A stretch of DNA of 64,000 nt from Marispirochaeta aestuarii (GTDB lineage: Bacteria; Spirochaetota; Spirochaetia; JC444; Marispirochaetaceae). The notes beneath the pieces were generated by a model that saw nothing but the letters and a program-made list of their open reading frames with translations, was not told the origin of the DNA and made no database searches. Numbering within the stretch: position 1 is the first letter of the stretch; every line of letters begins with the position of its first letter. Positions 56,094-63,309 of this stretch are shown here, piece after piece. The stretch is from positions 62,001-126,000 of the forward strand of contig NZ_MWQY01000011.1 of assembly GCF_002087085.1 (NCBI RefSeq), written 5' to 3'. The translations under genes were made by a program, and so were the position numbers.

Positions 56094-57014
56094 TTGAATA
56101 TTCCAGGATTTCTTACAGGGAAACTTGTCGTTTTTTTATACCTGTTCTCATTTTCTCCGGGCCTTTTTGCCGAAGTCCCCATGGAGGTGCAGCCCGAGGG
56201 TGCCCCCCGGGAGGAAGCGCGGAGGAGTTTTTCCGGAGAGGAGGTCGTCAGGGCTTTTTACAGGGCCTATCCCGACAGGATTGAGCGTATCGCCCTCCTG
56301 GCCGGGGACTGGGCCATGCTTGTTGACGGCAGCTGGTTTTTCTGGGCCGAAGGACGGCTTCTTCCGGAAGAACTTAGAATGCAGCACCGGGATTATTCTC
56401 CTTACCCCTTTTACCGGTACCCCCGGACTCTGCCCGCCTTAGGGGAACCTGATCCTCAGGAGGCTGCCAGGCTGCGGGCCAGGGTCAGCTCCCGGGAGGA
56501 GAACCCCCCGCGGCGGCACCCCGGATTCTTCAACGCCCTGTGGCGAATTTACGACCGGGATACCAGCTGGGCGCGGATGAAAACCACCTTTTTTCTGGGC
56601 CACAGGATTGAGCTGCACCGGGAGCTGCTGGAGGACCTGGCGGCGGTGGAGGAGACAATCCAGGAGGTCATGAAGACTGATGCTGATCTGCGCCGTTTCG
56701 TTGCCGGCCTTTCAGGCTTCGACGCTTACAACTGGCGTATAATTGCAGGCACGGCATCCATGAGCTTTCATGCCTACGGTGCCGCGGTAGACCTTCTTCC
56801 GGGGGACTACCGGGGACTCCAGGCCTACTGGCGCTGGGCGGCCCGCTATTATCCTGACTGGTTTACCCTTCCCTACGAACAGCGCTTCATGCCTCCGGAC
56901 TCCTTCGTCCGGGCCTTTGAAGAGCAGGGATTTATCTGGGGAGGGAAATGGTTCTACTTCGATACAATCCATTTTGAATACCGGCCGGAACTTCTGATTC
57001 TGAACGGCTGGTAG
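56094..57014 (+). CDS. M15-family D-alanyl-D-alanine carboxypeptidase-like protein
   Basis: Protein of 306 residues. A signal peptide (KLVVFLYLFSFSPGLFAE) is followed by a linker region and a C-terminal VanY/M15 domain: Zn ligands in SFHAYGAAVDLLPGD (SxHxxGxAxD) and DTIHFEYRPELL (last His). It probably trims peptidoglycan peptides in the periplasm. The TTG start at 56094 has AGGAA 9 nt upstream and gives a sensible signal peptide. Confidence 0.85.
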   Translation: MNIPGFLTGKLVVFLYLFSFSPGLFAEVPMEVQPEGAPREEARRSFSGEEVVRAFYRAYPDRIERIALLAGDWAMLVDGSWFFWAEGRLLPEELRMQHRDYSPYPFYRYPRTLPALGEPDPQEAARLRARVSSREENPPRRHPGFFNALWRIYDRDTSWARMKTTFFLGHRIELHRELLEDLAAVEETIQEVMKTDADLRRFVAGLSGFDAYNWRIIAGTASMSFHAYGAAVDLLPGDYRGLQAYWRWAARYYPDWFTLPYEQRFMPPDSFVRAFEEQGFIWGGKWFYFDTIHFEYRPELLILNGW

Positions 57015-57032
57015 GAAGTTTAAGGAGGTCCT

Positions 57033-57569
57033 ATGCTCTCGTTTATAGCCAAATTCCTCGCCGCCCTGAATGCCAATTCCCGGCCGGGGGAGATCGGGGC
57101 CGCCGCCTCTTTCGGCTTCATGCTGGCCCTGATTCCAGGGGGGAACCTGCTCTGGTTCGCCCTCTTTATTCTGGTGTTTCTGCTCAAGGTTCACCTGGCG
57201 ACGGCGCTGCTGGTGATGGTGCTCGGTAAACTGGTCGTCCCCCTGCTTGACCCCCTTATTGAACTTCTTGGTCTGGCAATTCTGAACCAGGAATCCCTTT
57301 TTCCCCTCTTCACCGCCATGGCCGACATGCCCCTGCTGCCCTACACCAACTATAACCACTCCCTGGTTACAGGGGGGTTCGCTGCAGGTATCATTCTCTG
57401 GATACCCCTCTTTTTTCTCTTCATACTGCTGGTACGGCTGTACCGCAGCTATCTCTGGCCGAAGCTTGCGGAGAACCGGCTGGTTAAGGGCTTTTTACGC
57501 TATCCCCTGGTCAAAAAGATCAGCGGGGCCGTCGGCAAGGTCGGCGGATTCTGGAAGGGAGTACGCTGA
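57033..57569 (+). CDS. TIGR03546-like membrane protein
   Basis: Protein of 178 residues with three or four TM segments (AAASFGFMLALIPGGNLLWF, ALFILVFLLKVHLATALLVM, GGFAAGIILWIPLFFLFILL) and a basic C-terminus. It matches, from memory, the conserved hypothetical family TIGR03546, which is found beside TIGR03545 as here. AAGGAGGT precedes the ATG, and its stop overlaps the next ATG by 1 nt. Function unknown. Confidence 0.75.
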   Translation: MLSFIAKFLAALNANSRPGEIGAAASFGFMLALIPGGNLLWFALFILVFLLKVHLATALLVMVLGKLVVPLLDPLIELLGLAILNQESLFPLFTAMADMPLLPYTNYNHSLVTGGFAAGIILWIPLFFLFILLVRLYRSYLWPKLAENRLVKGFLRYPLVKKISGAVGKVGGFWKGVR

Positions 57570-59638
57570 TGGCAAAGACCAAATCCGTAAAGCTGCCGAA
57601 AATGTTTCGGAAACCCATACCGAAAAAGCGCTTCGAAAAGAAGATACTCCGGCGGATCTACCTTGCGAAGGAGAGGGATTTCCTGCTTTCTCTGGCAAAA
57701 CAGGATGAGCAGGAGAGGTATGTCATATCCGGGGAACTTTCAAAGGCCGAGGCGAAACACCTCGCGACCCTGGCTAAATCCATACGGAAAAACAGAGGGC
57801 TCGTCACCGGCTGGAAGGCCGCAATTCTGGCGGTCATTATCGGTTCTCTGCTTGTCTTTAATTTCCTTTTCAAGGACCGTCTTGCAGAGGCGGGCATGGA
57901 AGCGGCCCTGGAGAATGTATTTCGCGCCAGGGCGGAAGCAGAAGGTGTTCACCTTTCGCTGTTCCGGGGATCCCTCTCTTTTGAATCCCTGTCGGTGGCG
58001 GATCGGGACAAACCCATGGAAAACCTTTTTGAACTCTCCCGTTCCGAGCTGCGGGTAAACATCTGGGAGCTGCTGAAAAAGCGCCTCGTCATCGAACGGG
58101 CGGTATGCTCCGGCATCCGGCTCGGGACCCCCCGGGACTCCTCCGGTGCGCTGCCCGAGGCCGAGACGACTGAGGCAGGTTTCTCTCCCGGGGACAGCAG
58201 GTCCTCCGGTCTCGGGGCACTGCTGGCGGACACAGATCCCGAGGCTCTGCTGCAGGCCCAGTTTGACCGGCTGCGGAGTCCTGCCTACCTGGATGAGGTG
58301 AACGGCCGCTATCGTCAGGCGCTCGACCTCTGGCCGGAGAGGATCGAGGCTGTGCAGAATGATCTGGAGGCCGGAAGAACGGCGGCTTCCCGTATCGCGG
58401 CCCTGAAGATACAGGAGATTGACAGCCTGCAGGAGGCCGCGGACGCGGCGAAGGTGATTCAGGATAATTATCCCCGGGTGGAAGAAGCCGCCTCCACGCT
58501 ACGCCGGACCAATCGGGATTTTCAGCAGGACCGGGAGGCTCTGACGGATCTGCAGAGGGGAGTACGGGATGCCCTGGAGGAGGATTACCGGCTTCTGGAG
58601 TCCGTGGTGGCAGATCCCGGAGGAGAACTCGGCGGGGTGGCTTCCCAGGCGGCGGAGAACCTCCTGAAGGCCCGGATCGGCAGGTACTATGACTATGCCC
58701 TGAAAGCCATTGATGCCTCCAGAAAGATGAAATCGGAGAATGGTAAAAAAGAAGCTGCGGATGTTCGCCGACAGGGCGCTGTTGTAAAATTTCCGGTCCG
58801 GGGATATCCCCGGTTCATGATTGAGGAGCTCTATATCTCCTACGGGAGTTCCGGTTCCGGAGAGTATCTTGAAGCATCCGCGCAGGATATAAGCTCTGAC
58901 CAGGAGATCGTCGGGCGGCCGGTTCGGTTCTCCCTGAATGCCGAGGACGGCGTGCATCGTATCAGCGGAGAAGGTTCTCTGGACACCCGGCAAGGGGCAC
59001 AGGAGTTTCTCTCCCTGGAAGGCGGCCTTGAAGGCGGCGGTTTCGCTCTAGGAAATGCCCTGTCCGGAATCGGACTTGAGGAACTGAAGGGCTCCGCCGA
59101 CGGAAGCATCGTGTTCAGTATCGATCCCGGGATGAAGGGTGCCGGAACCGCAGAGATCCGGCTGGAGGATATGAACCCCATTTTTCAGGATGACGGAAAC
59201 CTGCTGCAGAATGCTGTCCGGGAGGTCCTTGCCTCTACGAACAGCGCGGTTTTTACGGTATCCTTCGAAGCTGACGAGGGCGGTTTTACCCGTTTCCGGG
59301 TGAAAAGCGATCTGGATGCCCTGCTCGCCCGGCGGGTGGGTGCTTTTCTGGATGCCGAGGCATCCAGACTCCGGGAACGCCTTAAGGTTCTGCTTCGGGA
59401 GGAGCTGGCATCTGCCCTTGAGGAAAACGCCGAGCTTGAAAACCTGCTGGGTACCTGGGGTGGAGAGCTTGCTGAGGACCTCCGTGAGGCAGGCAGTCTG
59501 GAGGACCTTGCCCGGTCCCAGGAGGAACGTCTGGATACCAGAATGCGGGAGATCCGGGACGAGGCCGCCGGAGAAGTACAGGACAAGGCGGAGGATCTGA
59601 TAAAGGATGCCGCTAAGGATTTCAAGCTGCCCTTCTAA
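57569..59638 (+). CDS. TIGR03545-like large membrane-anchored protein
   Basis: Protein of 689 residues. A basic cytoplasmic N-terminus (KKRFEKKILRRIYLAKERDF) is followed by one TM segment at about 95-113 (AAILAVIIGSLLVFNFLF), then a large extracytoplasmic part. The region after the TM (VHLSLFRGSLSFESLSVADR) resembles AsmA-like inter-membrane transport proteins; the middle is coiled coil, the end is rich in Glu and Arg. I identify it with TIGR03545 by memory and by its TIGR03546 partner. An inter-membrane lipid-transfer role is speculation. Confidence 0.75.
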   Translation: MAKTKSVKLPKMFRKPIPKKRFEKKILRRIYLAKERDFLLSLAKQDEQERYVISGELSKAEAKHLATLAKSIRKNRGLVTGWKAAILAVIIGSLLVFNFLFKDRLAEAGMEAALENVFRARAEAEGVHLSLFRGSLSFESLSVADRDKPMENLFELSRSELRVNIWELLKKRLVIERAVCSGIRLGTPRDSSGALPEAETTEAGFSPGDSRSSGLGALLADTDPEALLQAQFDRLRSPAYLDEVNGRYRQALDLWPERIEAVQNDLEAGRTAASRIAALKIQEIDSLQEAADAAKVIQDNYPRVEEAASTLRRTNRDFQQDREALTDLQRGVRDALEEDYRLLESVVADPGGELGGVASQAAENLLKARIGRYYDYALKAIDASRKMKSENGKKEAADVRRQGAVVKFPVRGYPRFMIEELYISYGSSGSGEYLEASAQDISSDQEIVGRPVRFSLNAEDGVHRISGEGSLDTRQGAQEFLSLEGGLEGGGFALGNALSGIGLEELKGSADGSIVFSIDPGMKGAGTAEIRLEDMNPIFQDDGNLLQNAVREVLASTNSAVFTVSFEADEGGFTRFRVKSDLDALLARRVGAFLDAEASRLRERLKVLLREELASALEENAELENLLGTWGGELAEDLREAGSLEDLARSQEERLDTRMREIRDEAAGEVQDKAEDLIKDAAKDFKLPF

Positions 59639-59660
59639 GCCGGGTACGAGGAGTTACTGA

Positions 59661-59861
59661 ATGGACGAAGAACTGCTGCAACTGCAGACGAAGCTGAGCT
59701 ACCAGGAATCCGCGCTGGCGGATCTTAACGATACGGTAATATCCCAGCAGCAGGAGATCGACCGGCTCAGGAAAACGGTGGAACTCCTGGTGCAGAGGGT
59801 ACGGGACCTGCAGGACCAGGGGGGGGAGGAGATGCCTCACGTTCCTCCTCCGCACTATTAA
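59661..59861 (+). CDS. slyX: SlyX-like coiled-coil protein
   Basis: Protein of 66 residues: a coiled coil of heptads (LQTKLSYQESALADLNDTVI, QQQEIDRLRKTVELLVQRV) with the hallmark end PPPHY, as in SlyX. Function of SlyX is unknown. The ATG has GAGGAG upstream. It follows the TIGR03545-like gene by 22 nt and probably ends that operon; a MITE-like element begins 3 nt after its stop. Confidence 0.9.
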   Translation: MDEELLQLQTKLSYQESALADLNDTVISQQQEIDRLRKTVELLVQRVRDLQDQGGEEMPHVPPPHY

Positions 59862-59863
59862 AC

Positions 59864-60018
59864 TATGGGCACCACTAAAAACGTAGTATTTTTGTTATAG
59901 GCAAGGCGGAGGGATTTTGTAGCGCCCGCAAACTCTTGTAATAACAAGAGTTGAGGACCGCGGGAAATCCCGACAACGCAGCATAGAGAAAAAAGAGTAG
60001 TTTTTAGAGGTGACCCTA
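59864..60018. mobile_element. MITE-like palindromic element, about 155 bp
   Basis: Long imperfect inverted repeat with no coding capacity. The ends match in inverted orientation at 15 of 18 positions (left: TATGGGCACCACTAAAAAC; right read inward: TAGGGTCACCTCTAAAAAC). The centre is a perfect hairpin AACTCTTGT / ACAAGAGTT at 59931-59952, placed on the symmetry axis of the whole element. Inner arms include GGGATTT / AAATCCC and GCCCGC / GCGGG. TA at both ends suggests a TA-duplicating (IS630/mariner-type) MITE; no transposase is present. Confidence 0.8.
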
Positions 60019-60026
60019 TTATTGAA

Positions 60027-60055
60027 TTGAATCTCTCCGCCGCCTCCATTATGAT
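60027..60055 (+). promoter_or_regulatory. Promoter of the GNAT gene, leaderless type
   Basis: -35 TTGAAT (60027-60032), 17-nt spacer, -10 TATGAT (60050-60055), 7 nt to ATG 60063. It begins 9 nt after the MITE-like element. Confidence 0.6.
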
Positions 60056-60062
60056 TCGGCCC

Positions 60063-61202
60063 ATGGATGTTACGGAGATTCGTGCTGTTCTGTCTCCCCG
60101 CAGCCGGGAGGCCGGGGATTTTATAGCTTTTCCAAAGAGACTCTACCGGGACTGTCCCTGCTATGTTCCCTGGTTTGACCGGGGAATGCGAAGGCTTTTC
60201 TCCCGGAAGAGCCCCTTTTTCCGACACTCCGACGGGGAGTTTTTTGTCGCCTACCACGGGAACACCCCCGTGGGGCGGATCGCTCTTTTTGAAAACCGAA
60301 ATTTCAACAGCTATACGGGGAACAGGGACGCCAGGTTCTATTTTTTCGACGCGGAAAACAGTCAGCCCGCTGCTGATGCGCTGTTTGATCTTGCCGCGAA
60401 CTGGGCCCGCAGCAGGAAGCTTACGCGTCTGATAGGCCCCCAGGGTTTCTCCAGCATGGCCGGCGGGGGAATCCTGGTCCAGGGGTACGACCAGATGCCC
60501 GCCATGACGATGATGGGGTACAACTATCCCTATTATCAGGAGTTACTGGAATCCGCAGGTTTCAGCAAATACAAGGATTTTGTCTCCGCATATCTGGATC
60601 CCAGAACCTACCGCAGCCCTGAAAAGATCTCCCGGGTGGCTGCAATCGCCATGAAACGGGGAGGTTTCGATCTTCCCCGTATCAGAGGCCGCCGGCAGAT
60701 GCGTGCCCTGGCGCTGGAGATCGGGCGCCTCTATAATGAGTCATGGCAGGACCATGCGGAGTTCGCTCCCCTCACCGAGGAGGAGCTTCTGGAACTCACC
60801 AATGATCTGATGCTTGTGACGGACCCGAAACTCCTGCAGGTCATTCGAAAAGGAGATGATCTCGCCGGTTTTGTACTGACGTTTCCGGACCTCACCAATG
60901 CCCTGATCAAGGCGAAGGGAAAGCTGAATCCCGTCAGCCTGTGGTCAATTCTGCGGGAGAAGCGCCGTACCGACAAGGTTATAGTCAACGGGCTGGGGAT
61001 TCATCCGCGCTACCGTAATAACGGTGGAACGGCGATCCTGTACCATGCCCTGGAAAAAAGTGTTCAGGGTCTGGGGCGGGAGTTTGTGGGGGCAGATCTC
61101 ACTCAGGTCGCCGAGACCACTGAATTGATGCTTGCCGATCTTGAAACCCTGGGGGCCAGGGTTTACAAGCGTCACCGGGTTTACCATAAGGGCACCTCAT
61201 AA
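60063..61202 (+). CDS. GNAT-like acyltransferase
   Basis: Protein of 379 residues. The N-terminus ([20 protein letters not shown]) and [16 protein letters not shown] match a GNAT-related family of about 370-390 residues; a second GNAT-like half has [20 protein letters not shown] (acetyl-CoA loop region) and [20 protein letters not shown]. Substrate unknown. I prefer ATG 60063 ([11 protein letters not shown]) because the promoter ends 7 nt before it; ATG 60051 is the alternative. The stop codon lies inside a small palindrome related to the upstream MITE ends. Confidence 0.8.
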
Positions 61203-61225
61203 AAACGATTTTTTAGGTGCCCATA
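61187..61225. repeat. Short palindrome related to the MITE-like element
   Basis: GGGCACCT (61190-61197) and AGGTGCCC (61215-61222) flank CATAAAAACGATTTTTT. The right half read inward, TATGGGCACCTAAAAAAT, is close to the left end of the 155-bp element, so this looks like two element ends joined with the centre lost. It spans the stop codon of the GNAT gene and lies 26 nt before the MCP start. Confidence 0.65.
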
Positions 61226-61248
61226 AAATGATTAAACGGGGAAAGTAT

Positions 61249-63309
61249 ATGAAAAGGATAAGTCTGCGCCTCAGGCTCGTACTCGGTTTTCTGGTTATGA
61301 TTCTTCTGATCACTGCCGTTTCAGTTTTAAGTATTATCCGCTTCAACGATGTGGCTGCCCTCGGACGGGCTGCGGTACGGGAGAACAACAACCGTGCTTA
61401 TGCCCTTGCCCGGGAGATTGACCATCTGAAGTGGGTCAGCGATGTGAGTGATCTCTTTCTGCTGGACGACATCCTGGAGCTGAATGTCGAGACCGACTGG
61501 CACAGATGCAGCCTGGGCGAGTGGATCTACGGCGAGGCCATGGCGGAGGAGACGGCGGGGGATCCCGAACTCGGTCAGCTGATCAGCGCGATAAAACCTC
61601 CCCATGAGAGGATGCATAAAACGGCGATCAGGATCGACGAGATATACGTGGAATTTGATCAGTCTCTTTTGGTGACCCTGGAAAAGGCCTGGATAGATCA
61701 CCTTGAATGGCTCAAGGACCTGAATTATGCCGTCATGATGGGAACGGCATTTACTGGTGAAACCGATCCCCGGCGCTGTGATTTCGGCCGCTGGTACGGT
61801 AATTTCACCGCCGATGATCCTGACCTGAGCCAGCTGCTGGCCCTGTGGGAGGCACCGCATAAAGATCTGCACAATTCCGCGAAGGAGATTGTATCTGCCC
61901 TCGCCAGGGGAGACCTGGCAGGTGCAAGGCGTCTTTACAGCCGGAATGTACTGCCGGCCCTGGATCTGCTTCGGACAATCAAGAATCGGACAATGGCCCA
62001 TCTTCAGGAGCTGGACGCCGGGCAGAAGGCCGCCGTGGAAATTTTCAATACCGAAACGATTCCCGCCCTCCAGGAAACCCAGAGCGCCCTGGCCGGTCTG
62101 GTTGGATATTTTGAAGAGCGTGCGGAGACCGCCCGGCGAGACATGGAGGAACAGATCCGGCAGATCATTATTACCGTTATCGCCATAGCCCTGGCGGCCC
62201 TGCTTGCGGGGCTCTTTCTGGCGGTATTTACCACCTCCGCAATCCTGAAGCAGCTGGGACAGGATCCCATGATCCTGGAACGGATAGCCGAACGGGTAGC
62301 CCGGGGTGACCTGACAGTAGATCTTGCCGGTATCGACAGCTCCGAGGGGGTCTACCGTTCCGTGCTGGAAATGGTCGCGGCCCTGAAGGAAAAATCCGAT
62401 TCCCTGGAGATTCTTTCGGGGGGAGATTTTTCCCGGGAAATTAAAAAAGCCGGCAGTGCCGATATCCTGGGGGCATCGATGATTCGCATGCAGGAGTCCC
62501 TCTCCTCGGTTCTTCGCCAGGTCCAGCAGGCCATCGAGCAGGTCGCCCAGGGAGCGGACCAGGTCAGCACGGCCAGTCAGGACCTCTCCCAGGGGGCTAC
62601 CGAACAGGCGAGTTCCCTGGAGGAGATATCCTCCTCGATAACCGAGATAAACGGTCAGGCCTCCCAGAATGCAGCCAGTGCAGGAGAAGCCAACAGGCTT
62701 GCAAACGAGGCCAGGGACAACGCGGTCTCCGGCAACCGTTACATGGAAGAACTTGTCCGGGCGATGCAGCAGATCAATCTCGGGTCCGGTGAAATCAAGA
62801 AGGTGGTCAAAGTGATTGACGATATCGCCTTCCAGATTAATCTTCTTGCATTGAATGCAAATGTGGAGGCCGCCCGGGCCGGAAAATACGGCCGGGGTTT
62901 TGCCGTGGTGGCCAATGAGGTTCGCAACCTGGCAAATCGCAGTGCCGAGGCGGTCAGGGAGACGGAGACCATCGTTGACGATTCCCTGGAGAGGATCTCT
63001 GCAGGGGACAGGCTGGTAAACGATACGGCGGGACAGCTCATACAGATAGTGGAAGGAGTCGAGAAGGTTGCCTCGTTTCTCGAAGAGATCTCCTCTGCCA
63101 GCAGAGAACAGGCCCAGGGGCTCAAACAGATAAGCAGCGGTGTTGAGCAGATTGATGAAGTAACCCAGGCAAATACCGCCTCCGCAGAGCAGAGCGCTTC
63201 CGCCGCCGAAGAACTGGCGGGGCAGGCTGAGGAGCTGCGAAAACTGATCTCCCGGTTCAAACTTTCCGCAGGGAATATGCTCCTGGAAGGTCCCGGGGAA
63301 GAGGGCTGA
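61249..63309 (+). CDS. Methyl-accepting chemotaxis protein with two extracytoplasmic CZB modules
   Basis: Chemoreceptor of 686 residues. TM1 about 10-30, sensor 31-305, TM2 about 306-327, HAMP about 328-385, MCP domain to the end with the tip [20 protein letters not shown]. The sensor holds two copies of the CZB pattern: H59..W62, C87-S-L-G-E-W, H119..H123; and H151..W154, C177-D-F-G-R-W, H204..H208. CZB domains bind Zn and are usually cytoplasmic. ATG 61249 has GGGAAAG upstream. A zinc- or redox-responsive receptor is inferred. Confidence 0.92.

Follow-up and report, generated by a model that had tools for sequence, protein, structure and literature searches.

Two adjoining genes of Marispirochaeta aestuarii, of the families TIGR03546 and TIGR03545, form an obligate pair, and their products may constitute an inner-membrane complex in which a compact AsmA-like protein transfers lipid and has a loading partner of its own. 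We hold this functional reading at about even confidence. The pair lies within a stretch of 64,000 nucleotides (contig NZ_MWQY01000011.1, positions 62,001 to 126,000), hereafter the window, to which all coordinates given without a locus name refer. The two genes are:

57033..57569, + strand: TIGR03546 / DUF2062-like inner-membrane protein of 178 amino acids (partner A), assigned from NCBIfam, DUF2062 relatives and a structure model
57569..59638, + strand: TIGR03545 protein of 689 amino acids (partner B), a distant AsmA-clan homologue, assigned from NCBIfam and hhalign

Both proteins exceed the cut-off of their NCBIfam family, TIGR03546 with 125.5 bits against 79.45 and TIGR03545 with 179.4 against 173.35.

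Linkage and natural fusions of the pair

The linkage of TIGR03546 and TIGR03545 is very strong. With uniform presence thresholds of at least 60 bits for A and at least 80 bits for B, the two families occur in identical sets of genomes: 53 out of 247 in Spirochaetota, and 78 out of 144 in a second phylum, that of the Bdellovibrionia metagenome-assembled genome L195. This makes 131 of 391 genomes, in two phyla, with one-to-one inheritance. We compared neighbourhoods at 53 loci from the 247 Spirochaetota genomes, 14 loci from relatives, 80 named loci (the best 80 of 234) and 25 + 20 loci from the second phylum, sets that overlap partly in species. Wherever both genes were found, A directly adjoins B, in this order and on the same strand (64/64, 79/79 and 25/25 loci, the sets partly sharing species). 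The named loci were retrieved with TIGR03546 alone: TIGR03545 adjoins it in 79 of these best 80 of 234, and the remaining one is truncated by a contig end. The pair is further present in records named KSB1, Endomicrobiales, Ignavibacteriae and Mcinerneyibacteriota.

The first-pass annotation of this DNA had supposed that the small partner always precedes TIGR03545 and had proposed co-occurrence as a check; the order and the identical genome sets bear it out, far beyond chance. It had also called the genes undescribed. They were in print in 2014, in an article that refers to the pair as "functionally uncharacterized" and reports two plausible gene fusions, in Nautilia profundicola and Francisella tularensis (PMC4035852). 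We found no functional study of the pair in the open-licence literature.

The incomplete loci L117 and L219 lie at contig edges. In the genome G003, the TIGR03545 match falls into two complementary pieces (C1:360982 and 1728164), 1.37 Mb apart on one contig; by profile, one of its loci (L078) holds TIGR03546 only and the other (L079) neither family, which may reflect a rearrangement, a misassembly or a split gene. Neighbour clustering across the two phyla detected no conserved third gene beside the pair: recurrent neighbours are lineage-specific.

Several variants of the locus were also seen. TIGR03545 extends over two open reading frames (ORFs) in L193:5489-7695 (Treponema berlinense) and in L200, of 501+195 and 666+109 amino acids respectively, through a frameshift or a true split. 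One genome (G335, contigs C62 and C63) has two copies of both pair genes. The pair is retained in a genome of 1.14 Mb (L043), so it survives strong genome reduction; the small f5 genomes gave no strong match.

In two second-phylum genomes, A and B are fused in a single ORF. The product of L304:2115-4367, 750 amino acids long, matches TIGR03546 at 9-151 and then TIGR03545 at 178-720; that of L305:4461-6776, with 771 amino acids, matches them at 24-153 and 182-725. Pfam recognizes DUF2062, then DUF748, in both. In the fusions the TIGR03545 profile begins at position 69-71, so that most of its cytoplasmic N-domain is lacking, which suggests that this domain is dispensable. There, the C-terminus of TIGR03546 joins the transmembrane helix of TIGR03545 directly and is therefore probably cytoplasmic, in agreement with the basic C-terminal tail of the window protein (11 K/R vs 1 D/E). 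Two further TIGR03546 ORFs have long N-terminal extensions with no Pfam match, L144:1481-4045 (~675 amino acids) and L192:4296-5513 (~235 amino acids); these may be mis-starts or further fusions.

Homology and predicted architecture of the two proteins

The features of both proteins are listed below; the structure model of TIGR03545 has a mean predicted local distance difference test score (pLDDT) of 84.6 and a predicted template-modelling score of 0.56, with 69 sequences.

57569..57802, + strand: basic cytoplasmic N-domain of B, residues 1-78, predicted from the model; 23 K/R vs 8 D/E in residues 1-80
57809..57868, + strand: predicted single transmembrane helix of B, residues 81-100 (model)
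57872..58123, + strand: AsmA/chorein-N-like start of the periplasmic part of B, residues 102-185 (DUF748 match, model, hhalign)
58238..58735, + strand: predicted helical hairpin region of B, residues 224-389 (model; helical periodicity of conserved hydropathy)
58814..59308, + strand: predicted beta domain of B, nine strands, residues 416-580 (model)
59309..59614, + strand: predicted C-terminal amphipathic helix of B, ~100 residues, 581-682 (model; hydropathy period)
59624..59635, + strand: C-terminal tail KLPF of B; the last residue is Phe in 67/122 B proteins
57135..57155, + strand: conserved membrane motif of A, PGGNLLW here and P-K-x-N-L-L-W in the family, located where helix 18-33 gives way to helix 39-50
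57330..57377, + strand: conserved segment of A (family P-F-V-x-F-T-K-F-N-N-T-x-V-M-G), from an alignment of 70 sequences

The transmembrane helix of TIGR03545 and the next ~110 residues are, by profile comparison, homologous to AsmA-clan proteins. Ten stretches with weak matches to the TIGR03545 profile were taken from other genomes; the seven that were scanned are all AsmA, DUF748 or YhdP proteins, and the three others (L227-L229), whose long ORFs seemed unrelated, were left unscanned. Aligned with those seven proteins by hhalign, TIGR03545 reaches 96.3% over 112 columns, from the transmembrane helix onward. The controls gave 0.2% (reversed alignment), 0.2% (TIGR03546) and 0.4% (DedA). As the seven targets were chosen by the TIGR03545 profile, the comparison is not fully independent; their own Pfam assignments are. 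DUF748 itself matches 15 of 35 TIGR03545 members, with a best expectation value (E) of 6e-12, and weakly matches the window protein at residues 79-191; the latter has no Pfam match to AsmA proper (PF05170).

The first-pass annotation had assigned TIGR03545 one transmembrane helix and an AsmA-like start of its extracytoplasmic part, and both the weak DUF748 match and the model agree with it. An N-terminal transmembrane helix followed by a chorein-N-like domain is common to the clan (AsmA, YhdP, TamB, YdbH, DUF748), and TIGR03545 has this arrangement according to hhalign and the model. The chorein-N domain, found at AsmA-clan N-termini, has been implicated in lipid transfer (PMC6791001, PMC8593681). 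In the model, the segment consists of a helix (102-118) and beta strands (122-185), and runs into a disordered linker. TIGR03545 departs from the clan in several ways: its beta part is much shorter, it has an N-domain in the cytoplasm and a long helix at the C-terminus, a helical hairpin is inserted, and a polytopic protein is inherited with it.

Two beta parts are predicted in TIGR03545. Alternating hydropathy is mixed from strand to strand, with p <0.05 in 3 of 12, a pattern that cannot distinguish a groove from a sandwich. The stretch after alignment column 581 measures 88-185 residues across the family (median 111) and has a significant helical hydropathy period. The frequency of terminal Phe compares with 1.8% Phe across the last 100 residues, although the relatives counted are not independent. 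Phe-ending C-termini recur in both phyla examined, in patterns such as KLPGF and LKKxFGF.

The window TIGR03546 protein is by sequence a relative of DUF2062 (PF09835), and we do not file it as a member. Across the family, DUF2062 matches 68 of 70 members at E<=0.01, and some relatives exceed its cut-off. Other DUF2062-type genes, retrieved in the phylum by the TIGR03546 profile, differ in their setting: a generic DUF2062-AsmA pairing in Spirochaetota was rejected, because the weaker DUF2062-type matches lie, by eye, on other contigs than the AsmA matches listed. DUF2062 is functionally uncharacterised in the literature we found; BspA, a DUF2062 protein, is listed among translocated Brucella proteins in one article (PMC3738490).

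The TIGR03546 model (pLDDT 91) comprises two short helices, broken at P-x-x-N-L-L-W, and two long membrane helices, with the conserved P...F-N-N-T segment located between the long ones. Among the 70 sequences, P35 of the motif is invariant and N38 and W41 are conserved in at least 90%; in the segment, P100, N108, V112 and G114 are invariant. Fold comparison found no solved structure resembling TIGR03546. A relationship with the DedA/VTT family of scramblases and flippases (PF09335) was rejected as well, hhalign giving 0.3% against 30 DedA sequences. In consequence, its role is deduced from its partner only.

A possible role in lipid transfer

The lipid role is proposed because of the homology of one TIGR03545 domain. 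YhdP, TamB and YdbH have been put forward as phospholipid transporters (PMC8593681). As TIGR03546 is always inherited with TIGR03545 and sometimes fused to it, both probably belong to one lipid-handling unit. In such a complex, the cytoplasmic N-domain and the transmembrane helix would anchor TIGR03545. The first beta segment would act as a chorein-N-like scoop, loading a lipid, possibly a phospholipid, from the periplasmic leaflet, and the second beta domain would lengthen the lipid path. The C-terminal helix, ~15 nm long if extended, could cross the periplasm and dock through the short hydrophobic C-terminus. TIGR03546 would sit beside the transmembrane helix and the scoop entrance, delivering or orienting the lipid into the scoop. 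We infer that transfer would run from the inner to the outer membrane.

A lead comes from the eukaryotic lipid bridge LPD-3 (BLTP1), to whose small donor-end membrane proteins TIGR03546 may be compared. With VIA-align, the TIGR03545 model aligns to chain 9cap_A of the LPD-3 complex with Z 7.0 and a root-mean-square deviation (rmsd) of 11.6 over 264 residues, covering the transmembrane helix and both beta parts. The match is suggestive because LPD-3 is a lipid bridge anchored by a transmembrane helix, with two membrane proteins, spigot and intake, holding its beginning in place (PMC12066543). Both systems would have a membrane-anchored chorein-type start with small membrane proteins beside it. 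Unlike TIGR03545, LPD-3 is a megaprotein in which a beta-groove unit is repeated many times, and TIGR03546 is likened to spigot and intake by role, not by homology.

Several results weigh against the lipid-transfer reading. The homology covers only ~110 of 689 residues, and nothing connects a lipid groove with the second beta domain. The window TIGR03545 scores 22.9 bits with DUF748 (PF05359), below the gathering cut-off of 50, so we do not file it there, and its partner 20.1 bits with DUF2062, below 27.4. With one E. coli AsmA sequence alone, hhalign gives only 4.2%, in the same region. For neither model did Foldseek return a match at E<=0.001. The 9cap_A alignment ranks 20th, below rows that are mostly helical bundles, with a Z tied with unrelated helical and porin chains and a large rmsd; when solved structures were searched by sequence, TIGR03545 matched only helical or coiled-coil entries and TIGR03546 gave nothing of use. 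TIGR03545 is also far shorter than YhdP or TamB, its terminal Phe is missing in 55 of 122 proteins, and TamB is not matched in 9 of the 53 TIGR03545 genomes of Spirochaetota.

An envelope complex of structural or sensory function is an unlikely alternative: TIGR03546 would be a channel, a transporter or a subunit for signalling, controlled by TIGR03545 as a periplasmic ruler or tether. Helices are predicted for about half of the periplasmic part, including the hairpin and the long amphipathic helix, and the cytoplasmic domain of ~78 residues, conserved in Spirochaetota, has no counterpart in the AsmA-like architecture as laid out in PMC8593681. Against it, AsmA-clan homology starts exactly at the transmembrane helix, and the fusions dispense with most of the cytoplasmic domain.

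Quite unlikely, too, is a TAM-like assembly factor, in which TIGR03545 would aid the insertion of outer-membrane or secreted proteins, with TIGR03546 as its anchor and a cargo other than lipid. AsmA and TamB were initially connected with the assembly of outer-membrane proteins, and according to the same source (PMC4494059) F or Y is often the last residue of TamB, as Phe is of many TIGR03545 proteins; the TamB of M. aestuarii itself ends in F and adjoins a gene that is BamA-like by eye. The TamB partner is an outer-membrane Omp85 protein and that of TIGR03545 an inner-membrane one. Against this reading, neighbour clustering detected no conserved third gene next to the pair, whether for an Omp85 protein or another. 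TamB is moreover already matched in 44 of the 53 TIGR03545 genomes, M. aestuarii included, and the terminal Phe of TIGR03545 follows a long helix instead of a beta strand, unlike a typical beta-signal.

Neighbouring genes and the AsmA-clan complement

The pair is flanked by two genes on the same strand:

56094..57014, + strand: M15_4-type peptidase gene, a flanking neighbour outside the unit (PF13539); it adjoins the pair within the genus only
59661..59861, + strand: slyX, a neighbour that belongs with the downstream block (PF04102; position in a congener)

The first-pass annotation had read the four ORFs as an envelope-assembly module. Their spacing of 18, -1 and 22 nt on one strand, as it had stated, exactly matches the ORF coordinates, and its four family labels all exceed curated cut-offs: the M15 protein scores 60.8 bits with PF13539 (cut-off 25) and SlyX 73.9 bits with PF04102 (cut-off 30). 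The M15 protein also has HxxxxxxD at residue 226 and DTIH at 290, which we take to be the zinc-ligand motif of M15 peptidases; its start codon, TTG, was chosen mechanically and is uncertain. An envelope role remains plausible for the pair; the membership of M15 and SlyX in the module falls away, with no homologue of either detected at the 53 Spirochaetota loci nor at the 25 + 20 second-phylum loci.

The M15 gene precedes the pair in all three genomes of the genus; the family has one further genome, and there the gene lies on another contig. Homologues of it (P0001) occur in 21 of 40 relatives, some of them genomes with no TIGR03545, and its single match among the best 80 of 234 named loci is the congener L149. 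SlyX, found in 14 of the 40 relatives, stands apart from TIGR03545 except in G000 and G248, and has no match among the same best 80 of 234. It follows TIGR03545 in two of the three genus members. In the third (G247), other genes follow TIGR03545, and slyX lies on a different contig (L122) with relatives of the GNAT-like and chemoreceptor genes that follow it in the window (59661-63309); slyX thus goes with this small conserved block downstream. The four genes came to lie side by side recently, M15 and slyX being unrelated neighbours of the pair. A module of peptidoglycan peptidase, TIGR03546, TIGR03545 and SlyX acting together is highly improbable and was rejected: tight spacing is seen in the window and one congener, and M15 adjacency in the three genus members, but neither flanking gene was found next to the pair beyond the genus.

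No promoter or terminator signal at the ends of the unit clearly exceeds the shuffled expectation. Directly 3' of slyX (59864-60018) lies an element resembling a miniature inverted-repeat transposable element, with 19-nt terminal inverted repeats that are 84% complementary. Three near-full-length relatives (72-81% identity, ~150 nt) and a partial one occur in 392 kb of the same genome, which identifies it as a dispersed repeat family.

AsmA (PF05170) has no match at E<=0.001 in the M. aestuarii genome. The AsmA-clan members detected there are TamB and TIGR03545, in a genome-wide search run without DUF748 and YhdP models. Within Spirochaetota, PF05170 matches 6 of 53 TIGR03545 genomes and 102 of 194 others, counts that ignore phylogeny; at least two of the six are other genes, the match in G091 being TIGR03545 itself and that in G194 apparently TamB. 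This scarcity fits a substitution, and class-level phylogeny could also cause it. It is possible, though less likely than not, that TIGR03546 is the dedicated inner-membrane loader of a bacterial bridge-like transporter, and that the two proteins make up a minimal two-part machine carrying lipid from the inner to the outer membrane, replacing YhdP and YdbH in spirochaetes, Bdellovibrio relatives and other diderms.

A study of YhdP and YdbH states that no partners of these two were known at the time (PMC8593681). TIGR03546 would be a concrete candidate for the entry route of lipid into AsmA-like transporters at the inner membrane, and the pair suggests an answer for spirochaetes such as M. aestuarii.

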